DNA from: Candidatus Fermentithermobacillaceae bacterium
GTDB taxonomy: Bacteria; Bacillota; Sulfobacillia; Fermentithermobacillales; Fermentithermobacillaceae
Assembly: GCA_012837895.1 (NCBI GenBank)
Contig: DUQH01000144.1
Span: 1-49,367, forward strand
Direction of reading: 5' to 3'
Length of the DNA stretch: 49,367 nucleotides
The position numbers were made by a program, and so were the translations under genes. Below are positions 10,524 through 17,957 of the stretch, piece after piece (position 1 is the stretch's first letter; the number at the start of each line of letters is the position of its first letter). The notes below the pieces were generated by a model, which did no database searches, was not told the origin of the DNA, and saw only the letters and a list, made by a program, of their open reading frames with translations.

Positions 10524-10598
10524 TGGAGCCGGCGAAGGGAATCGAACCCTTAACCTACGGTTTACGAAACCGTTGCTCTGCCCTTGAGCTACGCCGGC
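10524..10598 (-). tRNA. tRNA-Thr (CGT anticodon)
   Basis: 75 bases including an encoded CCA. Acceptor GCCGGCG pairs with CGCCGGC, the D stem is GCTC/GAGC, the anticodon stem ACGGT/ACCGT encloses TTCGTAA, and the T arm has AAGGG-TTCGATT-CCCTT. The anticodon CGT reads ACG. It lies 11 bases downstream of tRNA-Gly and is probably cotranscribed with it. Confidence 0.95.
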
Positions 10599-10609
10599 CC
10601 TAAAGATTT

Positions 10610-10684
10610 TGGAGCGAGAGACGGGATTCGAACCCGCGACCCTCGGCTTGGGAAGCCGATGTTCTACCACTAAACTACTCTCGC
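10610..10684 (-). tRNA. tRNA-Gly (CCC anticodon)
   Basis: 75 bases including an encoded CCA. Acceptor GCGAGAG pairs with CTCTCGC; the anticodon stem TCGGC/GCCGA encloses TTCCCAA; the T arm is GCGGG-TTCGAAT-CCCGT. The anticodon CCC reads GGG. It is the first of the two-tRNA unit with tRNA-Thr. Confidence 0.95.
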
Positions 10685-10697
10685 TCGGTCATTCATT

Positions 10698-10726
10698 ATT
10701 ATATCCCGGAGGTGCCCTGTGCGCAA
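10698..10726 (-). promoter_or_regulatory. Promoter of the tRNA-Gly/tRNA-Thr unit
   Basis: On the minus strand TTGCGC (10721-10726) and a perfect TATAAT (10698-10703) are separated by 17 bases, ending 13 bases before tRNA-Gly. It lies just after the end of the AbrB-like gene. Confidence 0.75.
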
Positions 10727-10742
10727 CAACCCAGGGAACGAA

Positions 10743-11210
10743 TCAGCCTTGCGCCTCGCGGCGCCTGGCCACTGCCATTTCCACATACCGGTTCCAGCAT
10801 TGAGTGCACAGGAAAAGATTGTCTATCACTTCAGACACGTCATACAAATTCCCGCACGAACGGCAACGATCTCTCCTGCAGCAAGGGGTCAGCACAACCC
10901 CCTGGGACCCGTTCCTGATTGCAATACGTTCACCCAGCGACCATCCAGTCTTTTCCCTTACCTCAGCGGGTATGATTATCTTACCGCCGGAACCGAGGTA
11001 GCATATCATTTCATCGCTCTGGCCGCCCGCATCAACCAGGATGATGCTTTCCCCTGCAATCTGAGCCCTGAGCACGGTACCTTCATCCCATCCACGGGCT
11101 TCCCTGATCTGGGAAGGAAGGGTGAACCTCCACCCGGTTGTAACTGTGCGCACATATTGCCTTTCTTTTTGGCTGCCTGTCGACACACTCACTCCAGCAT
11201 CCCGCCTCAT
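10743..11210 (-). CDS. AbrB/SpoVT-like regulator with two swapped-hairpin domains and a zinc ribbon (copy 1)
   Basis: 155 residues. Two AbrB-type DNA-binding domains follow each other: about 22-60 (TTGWRFTLPSQIRE, then a short strand-rich tail) and about 72-108 (GSGGKIIIPAEVRE). After them come C116-C119 and C135-C138, a C4 zinc ribbon. This should be a cytosolic DNA-binding protein acting as a dimer, with the ribbon adding DNA, RNA or protein contact. The gene overlaps the preceding paralogue by four bases (ATGA), so the two are made together. The AbrB domains support a regulatory role; targets are unknown. The ATG has a weak ribosome site, consistent with coupling. Confidence 0.75.
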   Translation of the reverse strand: MRRDAGVSVSTGSQKERQYVRTVTTGWRFTLPSQIREARGWDEGTVLRAQIAGESIILVDAGGQSDEMICYLGSGGKIIIPAEVREKTGWSLGERIAIRNGSQGVVLTPCCRRDRCRSCGNLYDVSEVIDNLFLCTQCWNRYVEMAVARRREAQG

Positions 11211-11653
11211 TTTCCCTGCGCCACCCGGTATTCTGCTCCCTTGACGCTCTGTAGTGCTGCCGCTTCAAGCTTTTGGGTGCAAAGCTTGCACAAGTGTACG
11301 TTGGGGAGCACTTGCCTCACTTCGTGCTCTGAACCACATGCACTGCACCGGAATTGCTGTTCTTCAGGCTTCACAATGATCTGGTTGCCCGGGAATGTAA
11401 AGGACAACACCTGCCCAGGATACAATCTGGCTTCTTCTCTCACTCTGGGAGGAATCAGCACTTTCCCAAGGGCGCCTACACGGCTTATATCCGGGCATTT
11501 GACGCAACCGATTTTGGGACAGCAAATGGTTATCTCAAACCCGTCCCAGTGGGCGCATACCTCTGTGCCGTTTTTCCACCCAAGTGTCCGGCGAATGGGT
11601 TTTGGAATAGTGACCCGCCAGCCGGAATCAATGAAGCGCCTCCAAGTTTTCAT
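11207..11653 (-). CDS. AbrB/SpoVT-like regulator with two swapped-hairpin domains and a zinc ribbon (copy 2)
   Basis: 148 residues with the same order of parts as its neighbour: AbrB domain at about 8-44 (DSGWRVTIPKPIRR), a second at about 59-96 (GALGKVLIPPRVRE), then C103-C106 and C122-C125. It also has a CC...C..C group at 44, 45, 50 and 53 between the two AbrB domains, which may hold a second metal and is absent from copy 1. Sequence identity between the copies looks low outside the motifs, so the duplication is old. It follows mtnA by 31 bases and may be the distal part of the gyrase-rtcB-mtn unit. Confidence 0.75.
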   Translation of the reverse strand: MKTWRRFIDSGWRVTIPKPIRRTLGWKNGTEVCAHWDGFEITICCPKIGCVKCPDISRVGALGKVLIPPRVREEARLYPGQVLSFTFPGNQIIVKPEEQQFRCSACGSEHEVRQVLPNVHLCKLCTQKLEAAALQSVKGAEYRVAQGK

Positions 11654-11684
11654 AATTGCTTCTCCCGGTCCTGCTCTTTCTCTT

Positions 11685-12749
11685 TCACTTTACCACTGAA
11701 GCTATGTTCTTCTCCAGAGGAGGAAACACTGTTCCGTTTTCTGTAATGATTGCAGAGATGAGTTCTGCAGGCGTGATGTCAAACGACGGGTTAAACGCCC
11801 GGGCACCTGGCGGCGCTACCGCCTTGCCCATGAACTCCAGGATCTCTTTTTCAGACCGTTCCTCGACTTTTATCCCGCTACCGCTGGTCAAACTCAGGTC
11901 AAAAGTTGACACCGGCGCGGCCACGTAAAACGGGATATTGTGGTGCTTGCACAAGCATGCCAGGCTGTATGTACCGATCTTGTTGGCCACGTCGCCGTTA
12001 GCGGCAATCCTGTCTGCGCCCACCACAACAGCGCCTACCTTCCCGAGAGACATGACATAGCCTGCAGCGCTGTCTGCCAGCAAGGTTACACTGATCCCGT
12101 CTTGCATAAGCTCCCATGCAGTAAGACGCGCCCCTTGAAGCCACGGCCTGGTTTCATTAGCGTAAACCATGGCAACTTTGTTCTCTGCCCACGCCTGCCT
12201 TATCACTCCCAGGGCCGTTCCCCATCCGCCGGTGGCCAGGGCTCCTGCATTGCAATGGGTCATAATGGTTGAACCCGCTCTTATGAGAGCTGCCCCGTTT
12301 ACCCCGATTTTGCGGTTTGCCTCTATGTCTTCCAGCTCTATGCGGCGGGCTTCTGTCAGGGCAGCTTCAGCTGCGCCTGTTATTCCCTCCTGTGGGAGTA
12401 CCAGAAGTGCCCTATCAAGCACCCGCTCAACAGCCCAGGAGAGGTTAACTGCAGTAGGCCTCGCAGAAGCCAGCATTGATGCAGCTTCCCTTAGAAATTG
12501 CGTTGCTGCCGCCAGGGTTTGACTGCTGTCGCCCGTGGAGCCAAACTCACCGGCCGCTTCAAATGCTGCCAAAGCCAGCCCGTAGCCCCCGCTTATGCCA
12601 ATTGCCGGGGCCCCGCGCACCACCATGTCAGTGATAGCTTGGGCAGTCTGCCTGTGATCGGTACACGTTACGTACTTCGCGTCCCCGGGCAAAAGCCGCT
12701 GGTCCAAGAGGGACAATACACCTTCATCCCACTTTACGGCCTGTAACAT
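11685..12749 (-). CDS. mtnA: S-methyl-5-thioribose-1-phosphate isomerase
   Basis: 354 residues from ATG at 12749, chosen because AAAGGTGG lies seven bases upstream; an ATG two codons earlier is too close to that site. MVVRGAPAIGISGGYGLAL near the N-terminus, MTHCNAGALATGGWGTALG in the middle with the catalytic Cys, and VVVGADRIAANGDVANKIGTY with the catalytic Asp match MtnA, an eIF2B-fold enzyme. It converts methylthioribose-1-phosphate to methylthioribulose-1-phosphate in methionine salvage. It follows mtnP almost without a gap. The later salvage enzymes are not in the window, so the product may feed a different shunt. Confidence 0.94.
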   Translation of the reverse strand: MLQAVKWDEGVLSLLDQRLLPGDAKYVTCTDHRQTAQAITDMVVRGAPAIGISGGYGLALAAFEAAGEFGSTGDSSQTLAAATQFLREAASMLASARPTAVNLSWAVERVLDRALLVLPQEGITGAAEAALTEARRIELEDIEANRKIGVNGAALIRAGSTIMTHCNAGALATGGWGTALGVIRQAWAENKVAMVYANETRPWLQGARLTAWELMQDGISVTLLADSAAGYVMSLGKVGAVVVGADRIAANGDVANKIGTYSLACLCKHHNIPFYVAAPVSTFDLSLTSGSGIKVEERSEKEILEFMGKAVAPPGARAFNPSFDITPAELISAIITENGTVFPPLEKNIASVVK

Positions 12750-12763
12750 ATCCATGCCACCTT

Positions 12764-13573
12764 TCAAGACAACACTCTTTCCAGTTCTTCATGGCAAGAG
12801 CATTGAGCCTTGGCGGGGATGTTCTCTATAATCTTCCGCATGAGATCTTTGAGTTTCTCATTGTGCTCCATGAACACCTTTGTGACTTCTTCAGCCGTTA
12901 CCGGCTTTATGTCAGGCCTACCTTCAAGCCCCACATCGTAATCGGTCACCAGCGACACGTTCAGGTAGCACATTCCAAGCTCCCGGGCAAGCATCACTTC
13001 AGGGTACCCGGTCATGTTGATAACTTTCCACCCCAATGACGAAAACCATTTGGACTCAGCCCTGGTTGAGAACCTGGGGCCTTGGATTACCACCATGGTT
13101 CCGTCCTGATGGTAGCGTAAACCTAACTCCCCGGCTGCAGCGATACCTAGCTTCCGCAATTCATCGCAGTAGGGGTCTGCCGAGCTCAGGTGAACCGTCT
13201 TAGGTCCGTCATAGTACGTGTCTTTTCTGCCTGTAGTCCTGTCGACAAACTGGTCGCAGAACACAAAGTCGCCTGGATGCACGTCAGGCTGGAGGCTGCC
13301 CACTGCACACGGGCCCAGCACCCGCGATACCCCTAGCTGCTTCAGTGCCCACAAGTTAGCCCTGTAGTTTACCATGTGGGGTGGATACTGGTGCTTCTTG
13401 CCGTGCCTGGGCAGGAACGCGATTTTCCTCCCTGCGATTGATCCAAGGGAAATCGCATCAGATGGATGCCCGTAAGGAGTGTTCACCGTTATTTCAGTTG
13501 CGTTATCAAGGAACTCATAAAACCCTGTGCCGCCTATTACAGCTATCTCAGCCCTTTTGTCTGTGCAAGCCAT
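12764..13573 (-). CDS. mtnP: S-methyl-5'-thioadenosine phosphorylase
   Basis: 269 residues; ATG with GGGGAAG upstream. IGGTGFY at the N-terminus is the phosphate-binding loop, LPRHGKKHQYPPHMVNYRAN the conserved central motif, QGPRFSTRAES and NMTGYPEVMLARE the substrate-side motifs of the MTAP/PNP family. It splits methylthioadenosine, a by-product of polyamine and SAM chemistry, to adenine and methylthioribose-1-phosphate, the substrate of MtnA encoded next. Some members also act on inosine or adenosine, so purine specificity is inferred mainly from the mtnA partner. Confidence 0.93.
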   Translation of the reverse strand: MACTDKRAEIAVIGGTGFYEFLDNATEITVNTPYGHPSDAISLGSIAGRKIAFLPRHGKKHQYPPHMVNYRANLWALKQLGVSRVLGPCAVGSLQPDVHPGDFVFCDQFVDRTTGRKDTYYDGPKTVHLSSADPYCDELRKLGIAAAGELGLRYHQDGTMVVIQGPRFSTRAESKWFSSLGWKVINMTGYPEVMLARELGMCYLNVSLVTDYDVGLEGRPDIKPVTAEEVTKVFMEHNEKLKDLMRKIIENIPAKAQCSCHEELERVLS

Positions 13574-13593
13574 ACCCGCTTCCCCTTTCTGGT

Positions 13594-15039
13594 TTAACCC
13601 TTGATGACCCCTAAAGGCCTTACCCTTGCCACTTTGGCCGCCAATCCGGCACGATGGGTGGCTTCAACTACGGTGCTTACATCTTTGTATGCGTCAGGAG
13701 CTTCTTCAACCAGCCCCTTCATGGTGGCGGATCTCACGAAAACACCCCTGCTTGCCAGCTCTTCCCTGAGTTCACCGGCAGTAATCGCCTTTCTCGCCTG
13801 TGTCCTTGAAAGCGCCCGGCCGGCTCCATGGCACGCAGACCCGAAGGAAAGCTTCATGGCAGTCTCGGTGCCCCTGAGAATGTAAGAAGCCCGGCCCATA
13901 TCTCCGGGGATCAACACAGGCTGCCCCACTTGCCGGTATTTCCCAGGCACATGTTGGTGCCCTGGCCCAAACGCCCTGGTAGCGCCCTTCCTGTGGACCA
14001 ACACTTTCCGGCTGTTCCCATCGACCACGTGTTCCTCGATCTTGCCGATGTTGTGGGCCACATCGTAGAGCATGTACATCCCCAGGCTTTCAGGCGTCTT
14101 TCCAAAGGTCTGACTCACCGACTCCCTCACATAGTGGGCGAGGATCTGCCTGTTGGCCCAGGCGTAGTTAGCTGCGCTTGCCATGGCGGCGAAGTACTGC
14201 TTGCCTTCGTCAGATGCGATGGGAGCGCAATCAAGCTGGCGGTCAGGGAGGGAAATACCGTATTTGGAGATTGCCCGGCGCATCACACGCAGGTAGTCGC
14301 TGCACACCTGGTGCCCAAGGCCCCTTGAGCCTGAGTGAACCCAGAACACCGCCTGGTCCTTGAAAAGCCCAAAGGTACGGGCCGCTTCTTCGTCAAAAAT
14401 CTCCTCTACATAGCTCACTTCTATGAAGTGGTTTCCCGAGCCCAAAGTGCCCAAACCATCGCTTCCGCGCTTAAGCGCCCTGTCGGACACATGGCCGGGG
14501 TCTGCACCGTCCATACACCCGTTTTCCTCGCAGTGCTCCAGGTCCGAATCCCAGCCGTAGCCGTTTCTTACCGCCCAGCCCGCCCCTTCTGTCAGCACTT
14601 GGGCAAGTTGTTTCCGGGAAAGGCGGATCGATCCTGTCTTGCCTACACCTGTGGGGATATTGGCAAACAGCTTGTTCACCAGCTCTTCCTGGCGCTTCAT
14701 CACATCGTCCCGGGTCAGGTTTGACACCATTATCCTTACGCCGCAGTTGATGTCGTAACCTATCCCGCCTGGGCTCACAACCCCGCTGCTCATGTCAGTT
14801 GCCGCAACCCCGCCTATGGGAAAGCCATATCCTTCATGGATATCAGGCATTGCCAATGATGCCTGCAAGATACCTGGGAGATGAGCTACGTTCCTCACCT
14901 GATCTATGGCCTTTGTCCCTTCTAAATCCTTAAGTATCTCTTCAGTGGCAAAAATAGCGCCGTCTACCTTCATGCCCCCTGACTTGGGCATAATCCACTG
15001 GCATTCCCGCCCTTGAACCATCTTGAGGTTTGTTGCCAT
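13594..15039 (-). CDS. rtcB: RNA-splicing ligase RtcB
   Basis: 481 residues, the usual length. GIGYDINCGVRIM holds the metal-binding Asp and Cys; HSGSRGLGHQV and GSGNHFIEV hold further Mn ligands; GSACHGAGRALSR contains the His that accepts GMP. RtcB joins 2',3'-cyclic phosphate or 3'-phosphate RNA ends to 5'-hydroxyl ends using GTP and Mn, repairing cleaved tRNA or rRNA in bacteria. Archease, its activator, is encoded 42 bases upstream. I see no RtcR-type sigma-54 regulator nearby, and the gene appears tied to the gyrase transcript instead. Confidence 0.95.
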   Translation of the reverse strand: MATNLKMVQGRECQWIMPKSGGMKVDGAIFATEEILKDLEGTKAIDQVRNVAHLPGILQASLAMPDIHEGYGFPIGGVAATDMSSGVVSPGGIGYDINCGVRIMVSNLTRDDVMKRQEELVNKLFANIPTGVGKTGSIRLSRKQLAQVLTEGAGWAVRNGYGWDSDLEHCEENGCMDGADPGHVSDRALKRGSDGLGTLGSGNHFIEVSYVEEIFDEEAARTFGLFKDQAVFWVHSGSRGLGHQVCSDYLRVMRRAISKYGISLPDRQLDCAPIASDEGKQYFAAMASAANYAWANRQILAHYVRESVSQTFGKTPESLGMYMLYDVAHNIGKIEEHVVDGNSRKVLVHRKGATRAFGPGHQHVPGKYRQVGQPVLIPGDMGRASYILRGTETAMKLSFGSACHGAGRALSRTQARKAITAGELREELASRGVFVRSATMKGLVEEAPDAYKDVSTVVEATHRAGLAAKVARVRPLGVIKG

Positions 15040-15081
15040 TCAAATCACGCCCCTTTGACAGCTTGGCCCTGTAATACATTC

Positions 15082-15507
15082 TCAAACATCGAAAGTAACC
15101 CAGGCTTCTGCGGGAGTGAGATGCAATCCGTGAAACGTAGCAGCCTTTATCTGGAGGTTCACCCTTGCCTGCACGTGGGATACGTGCGCCCCGCATAGCA
15201 CCGAATCGAGGCGCACCTCTTCCCCATCCTGGCCTGGTTCAACCCTAATCTGCTCTATTCCCGCCATCACCAGGCCATCTGTGTCAAACAGGACCAGTTG
15301 TTCGTTGAGGAAAGCTACCAGAAGGTCTTCCATATCCATGCCTGTTACTTCGATGTGCCATTTATGTAAAGCAGGGATTTGGGCTTCGCCAAACATCAGA
15401 AACCACATTGCCTTGGACATTTCTGAAAACACATCTTCGAAGCCTGAGCCCCACGCCTTTACCCTTACGTCTGCAACATGATCGGCAACCAGGAATCCCC
15501 GGGACAC
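15082..15507 (-). CDS. Archease (RtcB activator)
   Basis: 141 residues from a GTG at 15507; GAGGGTG, inside the end of gyrA, lies seven bases upstream. DHVADVRVKAWG at the N-terminus, EDLLVAFLNEQLVLFDT in the middle, and KAATFHGL ending in TFDV match archease, including the acidic metal-binding residues at the N-terminus and the C-terminal Asp. It speeds RtcB guanylylation and turnover. It begins two bases after the gyrA stop, so translation may be coupled to gyrase subunit A. Confidence 0.9.
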   Translation of the reverse strand: MSRGFLVADHVADVRVKAWGSGFEDVFSEMSKAMWFLMFGEAQIPALHKWHIEVTGMDMEDLLVAFLNEQLVLFDTDGLVMAGIEQIRVEPGQDGEEVRLDSVLCGAHVSHVQARVNLQIKAATFHGLHLTPAEAWVTFDV

Positions 15508-15509
15508 AC

Positions 15510-17939
15510 TCAATCACCCTCAATAATGCTGCATGCTGACAGCCGGTCATTCTCCTCTATTTTCATTAGCCTTACGCCCAGGGTATTCCTCCGGGCAACC
15601 TTGACCTCTGACAGCTTTATCCGTATGGCTATGCCTTCAGCCGTTATGAGCAGCGCTTCTTCATCTTCCGGGTTGACAACACGCATGATTGCCAGGTTCC
15701 CGCCTTTTGCAGACTTCTTGATAGCCAGGACGCCTTTCCCGCCCCTTCCCTGGAGAGGGAAATCGCTTACTTCACTTAGTTTCCCGTAACCCTGTTCAGT
15801 CACGAGCAGCACCCTGGAATCAGGTGCAACAGGGTCGGCACCGATGACGAAGTCACCTTTATCAAGCCTGATAGCTATTACCCCTGTAGCTGTCCTGCCC
15901 ATAGGCCTTACATCATCGACCTTCATTCTTATGGCCTTTCCGAAATGGGTACCTATGAGGATTTCATCCCCGTCCTGGGCAAGCCTTGCAAGGATCAAAG
16001 CATCCCCTTGGCGGAGGCTAATAGCTCTCAGCCCGGTTTTCCTCCGGCTTAAGTATTCAGAAAACGGGGTCCGCTTGCACATTCCCTTCTTTGTGACGAA
16101 GAAAAGATCCCCTGCCTCTTCCACGTTTTCAGGGGCAGGAATGAGTGCTGTAACCCGCTCGTCTTTCTCGAGGGAAACCAGTTTGGACACGAGATGGCCT
16201 TTGGCCTGCTTGCTTGCTTCAGGTATATCAAATACCCTTAGCCAATATGCTTTGCCGTGTGTGGTGAACAAGACCAAGGAATCCCGGGTGGTAACGGACA
16301 CAACCTTTTCAACCCAGTCTTCGTCCCGCGTCTGCATGGCTGTGGCGCCTAATCCGCCTCTCCGCTGGCTCCTGTACGCGTTAAGAGGCATTCTCTTGAT
16401 GTATCCCATGCCTGTGAGAATCACGGAAACTTCCTGTTCAATTATGAGTTCCTCATCTGAAATCTCAACTGCCTTGGCCACGATCTTGGTGCGTCTTGGG
16501 TCTGCATAAGCCGCTTTGACATCTTCCAGGTCTTTCTTGATTATGCCTAATATCATTTTCTCAGAGCTTAAGACAGCCCTTAAGTACTCGATTTCCTTAA
16601 GCAGCGCCTGGCGCTCTTCCAGGATTTTTTCCCTTTCCAAGCTTGTAAGCCGCTCGAGCCTCATATCCAAGATCGCCTTAGCCTGGATCTCGTCCAGCAG
16701 GAATCTTTCCATCAGCCTGGTGCGGGCTTCCGCCCCGTTCTGTGAACTCCTGATAATGGCGATCACTTCATCGAGGTTGGCCAGGGCGATTTCCAAGCCT
16801 GCAAGGATATGTTCCCGTTCTTCAGCTTTTCTCAGTTCGTACCTGGTCCGCCTTGCAATGACCTCTTCCCGGTGCATGATGTAGTGGGAAAGCATGCCCT
16901 TGAGGTCGAGCACTCTAGGACGCCCGTCAACCAAAGCGAGCATTATGCCTCCGAAACTTGTCTCCAGGGTCGTGTACTTGAAAAGTTGGTTAAGCACCAC
17001 TTCTGCCTCTACATCTTTTCTTACCTCGATAACTACTCTGAGACCGCTCTTGTCGCTTTCATCCCTCAGGTCTGTTATTCCCTGGATCTTCCTGTCCCTC
17101 ACCAGATCAGCAATGGTCTTGATAAGCTTAGACTTGTTCACCTGGTAGGGCAGCTCATCTATTACAATGCGCTGCCTTCCGTTCTTTTGCGTTTCTATCT
17201 TGGTCTTTGCCCTGACTTTCATTACGCCCCTGCCTGTGGTGTACATGGATTTAATGGGCTCCAGGCCGACAATGATACCGCCTGTGGGAAAGTCAGGCCC
17301 CTTGATGTATTCCATGAGGTCAAGGGAACTGAGATCAGGGTTGTCAATCAGAGCTATCAGCGCATCCACTGTTTCCCCAAGGTTATGGGGAGGGATATTG
17401 GTGGCCATTCCGACTGCAATCCCTGAAGATCCGTTAATCATGAGATTCGGGACCCTCGACGGCAGCACAACCGGTTCTTTGAGTGAGTCGTCAAAGTTAG
17501 GCGCAAAATCAACTGTTTCCTTATCAAGGTCCCTGAGAAGTTCGCCGGCAATCTTAGTTAACCTGGCTTCAGTGTACCTCATAGCCGCCGGCGGGTCGCC
17601 GTCTATTGAGCCGAAGTTACCGTGGCCATCAACAAGAGGATAACGCATGTTAAACGGCTGGGCCATTCTGGCAAGGGCATCGTATATGGCTTGGTCGCCG
17701 TGGGGATGATACTTACCCATGGTCTCGCCCACCAAGCGCGCGCACTTTTTGTGAGGCTTGTCATGGCGCGTGCCCAGCTCATCCATGGAGTAGATTATCC
17801 TTCTCTGGGCCGGTTTGAGCCCGTCACGCACATCTGGAAGGGCGCGGGACACTATGACGCTCATTGAGTAGTCGATGTACGATCGTTTCATCTCGTCTTC
17901 TATAGGCGCGGGTACGAGTCTCTGGGCAATGTCTGTCAT
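15510..17939 (-). CDS. gyrA: DNA gyrase subunit A
   Basis: 809 residues from ATG at 17939, with GAGGAGGG seven bases upstream. The catalytic Tyr is Y122 in AMRYTEAR, the same number as in E. coli. The quinolone region reads [10 protein letters not shown]: Gln at 83 where Ser or Ala is usual, with Asp87 kept. The C-terminal wrapping domain has a GyrA box reading QRRGGLG, where the sixth residue is normally Lys or Arg. The enzyme introduces negative supercoils with GyrB. gyrB lies 18 bases upstream; archease begins two bases after the stop. No topoisomerase IV genes are in the window. Confidence 0.97.
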
Positions 17940-17957
17940 GCGCAAACCCTCCTCTTG

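Follow-up and report, generated by a model that had tools for sequence, protein, structure and literature searches.

We have identified a pair of adjacent genes, A and B, whose products each carry two AbrB-type halves and a C-terminal C4 ribbon in a single chain, and we consider it reasonably likely that these proteins are bivalent DNA-binding regulators in which single-chain barrels are joined through the ribbon and a terminal helix, with A-B as the most likely pairing. The design is unusual and is built from known parts; the combination of a double AbrB with a ribbon, the retention of two paralogues and the presence of further invariant cysteines are new and were not found elsewhere. The window (the whole 49,367-nucleotide stretch of DNA that was analyzed) carries both genes, as a sequence-only reading of it had noted; they lie on the minus strand, A is transcribed first, and the pair spans exactly 10743-11653. 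The features discussed below are as follows.

11685..12767, minus strand: mtnA, the upstream neighbor, 31 nt from A (synteny)
11207..11653, minus strand: gene A, 148 aa, ATG start (ORF translation, AbrB profiles, alignment, AlphaFold model)
11495..11506, minus strand: C50xxC53 codons in the linker of A (translation and alignment of A)
11279..11347, minus strand: C4 ribbon codons of A, C103xxC106 ... C122xxC125 (translation and alignment)
10743..11210, minus strand: gene B, 155 aa, ATG start (ORF translation, AbrB profiles, alignment, AlphaFold model)
10797..10883, minus strand: cysteine cluster and ribbon codons of B, C110 C111, C116xxC119 and C135xxC138 (translation and alignment)
10610..10684, minus strand: tRNA-Gly(CCC), a conserved downstream neighbor
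10524..10598, minus strand: tRNA-Thr(CGT), a conserved downstream neighbor
Protein A, in order: AbrB half 1, about 5-46; C50xxC53 linker; half 2, about 55-97; C4 ribbon; C-terminal helix, 123-145
Protein B, in order: AbrB half 1, about 18-60; linker; half 2, about 68-109; CC and C4 ribbon; C-terminal helix, 136-154

The two genes had been described as overlapping, and in the window genome they do so by 4 nt, given the chosen ATG of B; however, the overlap depends on that start and is not conserved, the A-B spacing varying from -4 to about +89 nt across the family. Alignment of the products (30% identity over 142 residues; E = 3e-17) identifies A and B as paralogues. Within the genus, dN/dS ratios of 0.05 to 0.20 for A and 0.13 to 0.31 for B indicate that both are under purifying selection, and these low values mark them as real, constrained genes. 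A 326-aa antisense open frame (window 10719-11699, plus strand) lies opposite A and B; it bears no sign of genehood and is probably a by-product of codon composition.

Both proteins belong to the AbrB family by profile. Pfam PF04014 (cutoff, 24.7 bits) was found twice per chain, with whole-protein scores of 41.4 bits (E = 1.4e-10) for A and 31.0 bits (E = 2.5e-7) for B, and NCBIfam TIGR01439 ("AbrB family"; cutoff, 28.3 bits) gave 43.0 and 41.7 bits, respectively, again over two stretches in each. The earlier proposal of two AbrB halves and a C4 ribbon per chain was thus borne out; failure in AbrB profile searches had been named as an outcome that would speak against it, and both proteins pass TIGR01439 and PF04014. 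Residues R8, R15, R23 and R24 of AbrB have been proposed to contact DNA (PMC4022651), and R23/R24 mutants lose DNA binding (PMC9598496). In every half of both proteins, all 14 sequences have R/K at the position of R15 and R at that of R23. At the position of R8, R was seen only in first halves (14/14 sequences of A and 9/14 of B), and the second half of both chains lacks R8-type and D11-type residues, so that DNA contact may be limited to a part of the barrel surface. The first half carries GWR and the second half GK in both proteins, which gives the predicted barrels of A and B the same asymmetry. A and B are probably DNA-binding regulators of the AbrB superfamily.

In ordinary AbrB, two chains that contribute one half each build a swapped-hairpin barrel, and the C-terminal part of the protein is a multimerization domain. 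MraZ is a well-known regulator with a double AbrB in a single chain, and it forms a ring-shaped octamer on repeated promoter boxes. AlphaFold models of A and B (pLDDT, 87.5 and 85.1) both found MraZ as their best structural match (9r4j_C; Z, 11.7), with both halves aligned and root mean square deviations of 2.9 Å over 93 residues for A and 2.4 Å over 91 residues for B; these matches concern the AbrB halves, the ribbon and helix being barely covered. Foldseek TM-scores to MraZ were moderate, at about 0.5, and the MraZ matches include promoter complexes released in 2026. The single-chain barrel of PhS018 was matched with Z scores of 6.6 (A) and 6.8 (B), plant B3 domains were weaker matches, and isolated AbrB-N aligned with one half only (49 to 52 residues). 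A sequence search against solved structures returned nothing significant. On these models, each chain is predicted to form a single-chain pseudo-dimer barrel, in agreement with the suggestion that two domains in one chain could form a pseudo-symmetric binder.

One AbrB domain per chain had been taken as the only ordinary case; this does not hold, since both MraZ, of which the genome has its own copy, and a free-standing ribbon-less protein described below have two. MraZ (PF02381; 1n0e, 9qlg, 9r4j) resembles A and B in that two AbrB-type halves are fused in one chain; however, it lacks the ribbon and helix, and its genome position also differs. PhS018 of Pyrococcus horikoshii (2glw) is likewise a single-chain barrel of two AbrB-like halves, but it consists of 92 aa and has no ribbon. 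SpoVT (TIGR02851) has the N-terminal AbrB half in common with the pair, and A scores 20.2 bits against a cutoff of 235.9; SpoVT combines one AbrB half with a GAF-type sensor domain, whereas the C terminus of A and B is a cysteine ribbon and a helix. The genome's own SpoVT lies at C56:27206. The clostridial-type AbrB proteins of about 85 aa (e.g., G000 C56:8778-9026) share the DNA-contact arginines with A and B and have a homologous C-terminal C4 ribbon of nearly equal spacing. They differ in having one half per chain, so that a homodimer is needed for the barrel, and they have no second half, extra cysteine groups or paired paralogue. The window genome carries a separate canonical single-domain protein of this type.

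Each chain closes with CxxC-(15)-CxxC followed by the helix. Pfam ribbon models gave no match to A or B at cutoff; the ribbon was called from the invariant CxxC...CxxC and from the matching ribbon in clostridial-type AbrB, and the bound metal is probably zinc. Among the 14 genomes, C33, C50, C53, C103, C106, C122 and C125 of A are invariant, as are C110, C111, C116, C119, C135 and C138 of B, whose C70 is present in 13/14; overall identity among the 14 sequences is 50 to 87% for A and 41 to 81% for B. An extra cysteine group between the AbrB domains had been placed in the second protein. It is in fact in A, the first transcribed (C50xxC53); B instead has CC (C110, C111) directly ahead of the ribbon. 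Compared with A, B shows faster evolution, and its linker varies across the family; its role might therefore be an accessory one.

The search for the AbrB-AbrB-ribbon architecture across genomes, which had been suggested as a check, confined full-length matches to 14 genomes of one family. Two peptide patterns of A, which reach close relatives only, were run against about 85,000 species genomes and hit 13 loci, 12 labeled Candidatus Fermentithermobacillaceae and 1 labeled only Bacillota bacterium; the 12 include Ca. Fermentithermobacillus carboniphilus Bu02, whose genome is closed. A and B are adjacent and codirectional in 14/14 genomes examined of Ca. Fermentithermobacillaceae (class DTU015), the window genome included. 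When 154 genomes of the class were searched by profile, full-length matches occurred in those 14 only; the other 140, including 3 of the same order, gave single-AbrB matches at best, and about 520 other genomes that were searched yielded no full pair. A joint A and B profile was run against 398 genomes of the phylum, 3 of them from the family, and only those 3 gave full-length matches; among the matches listed outside the family, nearly all span positions of about 45 to 145 only, that is, one AbrB half and the ribbon. Most of those that were read are ordinary AbrB proteins of about 80 to 100 aa (MKSTGIVRKVDELGRVVIP...CxFCG...CxxC), and none of the eight long open frames read among them was a double-AbrB-ribbon protein. 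An origin from a mobile element was rejected because the viral contigs and plasmids searched held no relative of A or B, and the open-access literature contained no paper on a tandem AbrB plus ribbon. Given the reach of the pattern scan, other phyla may hold a more distant protein of this double-AbrB-ribbon design.

Related architectures were also seen in these searches. In another genome of the phylum (G412), a 113-aa protein (L102:418-759; 46.9 bits) has two PF04014 stretches, as A and B do, but no ribbon and no cysteines; it is a free-standing tandem AbrB outside MraZ. Two proteins of about 155 aa, in genomes of 6.4 Mb (L096:465-929; G365) and 6.8 Mb (L097:193-666; G174), join an AbrB half and a C4 ribbon to a C-terminal stretch resembling a helix-turn-helix (ELAGVLGISQARVSQLKR) and represent another AbrB-ribbon fusion.

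The order in the window and the 13 related loci, as far as they extend, is gyrA-(archease-rtcB)-MTAP-mtnA-A-B-tRNA-Gly(CCC)-tRNA-Thr(CGT)-porGDAB, and the pair always sits between mtnA (or serS) and tRNA-Gly/tRNA-Thr. Exceptions are few: archease and rtcB were not found at L070, the two tRNAs were not called at L068, Bu02 has serS (serine-tRNA ligase by its sequence) between mtnA and A, and some loci have 2 to 4 kb inserted before por. It is probable that mtnA lies in the same transcript as A. The mtnA-A stretches read by eye in nine loci were mostly too short (about 30 to 90 nt) to support a shared operator.

Three genomes from the sister family, which belongs to the same order, have the arrangement gyrA-archease-rtcB-MTAP-mtnA-tRNA-Gly-tRNA-Thr-por, and in them mtnA is followed by tRNA-Gly without A and B in between. 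The simplest reading of this order is that the pair was gained once on the branch to Fermentithermobacillaceae and then kept; loss in the sister family is less likely, since the rest of the class holds no full-length match. In a half-domain tree, which rests on 44 columns, the first halves of A and B group together (92/79), and the second halves lie near canonical AbrB. AU tests in which the halves of A or of B were made each other's sisters gave p values of 0.067 and 0.27. With so few columns and such p values, the tree only leans against independent fusion in A and B and toward one double-half ancestor followed by tandem duplication.

We propose that, with both halves in one chain, each protein would fold by itself, in the manner of MraZ, into a full pseudo-dimeric DNA-binding barrel. 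The C4 ribbon (probably a zinc site) and the long helix would replace the AbrB multimerization domain and join two barrels, most likely as an A-B heteromer, and this bivalent complex would bind two neighboring sites. In favor of ribbon-joined barrels, we count the likeness of the ribbon to that of clostridial-type AbrB, whose C-terminal part multimerizes. Family membership suggests a broad regulator of the transition-state type, which would act beside the genome's own AbrB, SpoVT and MraZ. Bu02 is a predicted spore-former (PMC10215811), which makes transition-state control a reasonable guess, but only that.

The co-retention of A and B in 14/14 genomes is compatible with the heteromer; however, two genes that act separately would be expected to be retained as well. 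It can be envisioned that the two are independent homodimeric regulators with different targets, adjacent by tandem duplication alone, which would by itself account for their position. The divergence of their linkers and cysteine patterns and an identity of just 30% fit such an arrangement, which we hold to be possible but doubtful, since the genes are never split and neither is lost in the 14 genomes, even though the neighborhood changes (serS in Bu02; the 2 to 4 kb before por). The extra cysteines suggest another explanation, in which C33, C50 and C53 of A and C110, C111 and C70 of B form a second, oxidant- or metal-sensing site that alters DNA binding. They are invariant or nearly so against the much lower overall identity of both proteins, the organisms are predicted to be fermentative anaerobes (PMC10215811), and mutation of C54 in Bacillus subtilis AbrB abolishes DNA binding (PMC9598496); on the other hand, these cysteines may be purely structural, and we consider a switch of this kind unlikely. 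A more specific form, in which C50xxC53 of A and C110-C111 of B make up a second, inter-subunit four-cysteine metal site of an obligate heteromer that assembles and binds DNA only when loaded, is decidedly improbable. If it were true, Fermentithermobacillaceae would have an AbrB relative of their own, with a single-chain barrel and gated by metal or redox state.

The fold comparison raises the question of whether A and B are divergent MraZ proteins that regulate cell division genes, given that MraZ is the best fold match and that PF02381 weakly matched 3/14 A proteins. Against this very improbable reading, the pair lies outside any cell division cluster, and its ribbon and helix are absent from MraZ. 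Membership in MraZ was rejected, as A scored 11.9 bits against the PF02381 cutoff of 23 and B gave no match, and a true MraZ is present elsewhere in the genome (72 and 66 bits). The name of PF04014, MazE antitoxin, would imply that A and B neutralize a toxin, which is barely credible: TIGR01439 and the ribbon indicate AbrB, and the antitoxin role was rejected because no toxin-like gene stands beside the pair in the window or related loci, where the neighbors are mtnA/serS and tRNAs.

A and B represent a datable step from a homodimeric to a predicted single-chain DNA-binding fold, with a visible series consisting of the clostridial-type AbrB ribbon protein, its double-half version, the retained duplicate and, in the sister family, the empty site. 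Halves 1 and 2 have diverged alike in the two proteins, which makes the pair a natural setting in which to test the effect of pseudo-symmetry on DNA recognition. For an uncultured class of thermophilic spore-formers, the pair also provides a regulator that marks the whole family.

Several observations were made on the surrounding genes. Between the B stop and tRNA-Gly (window 10685-10742, minus strand), TTGCGC and TATAAT are separated by 17 nt, by eye a good promoter for both tRNAs; with this candidate in place, the pair transcript need not run into the tRNAs. Upstream (window 11685-17945), mtnA, MTAP, rtcB (RNA ligase) and archease follow gyrA directly and in its orientation; nearly all family genomes and the sister family keep this arrangement, which ties methionine salvage and RNA repair to the gyrase operon. 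In a sister-family genome (L119:4491-6089; G015), tRNA-Gly and tRNA-Thr are separated by three tandem ORFs of about 170 to 180 aa that carry NLVxNGGFExG-like repeats; the window family has nothing at this place, and a related ORF occurs in G016 (L118:8205-8573). Finally, one genome (L071:7315-8581; G013) has an insert that separates the tRNAs from porG and encodes what is by eye a Dam-type adenine DNA methyltransferase (WAGGKRW...ADPPY), and the 147-aa ORF that follows it is possibly its restriction partner.
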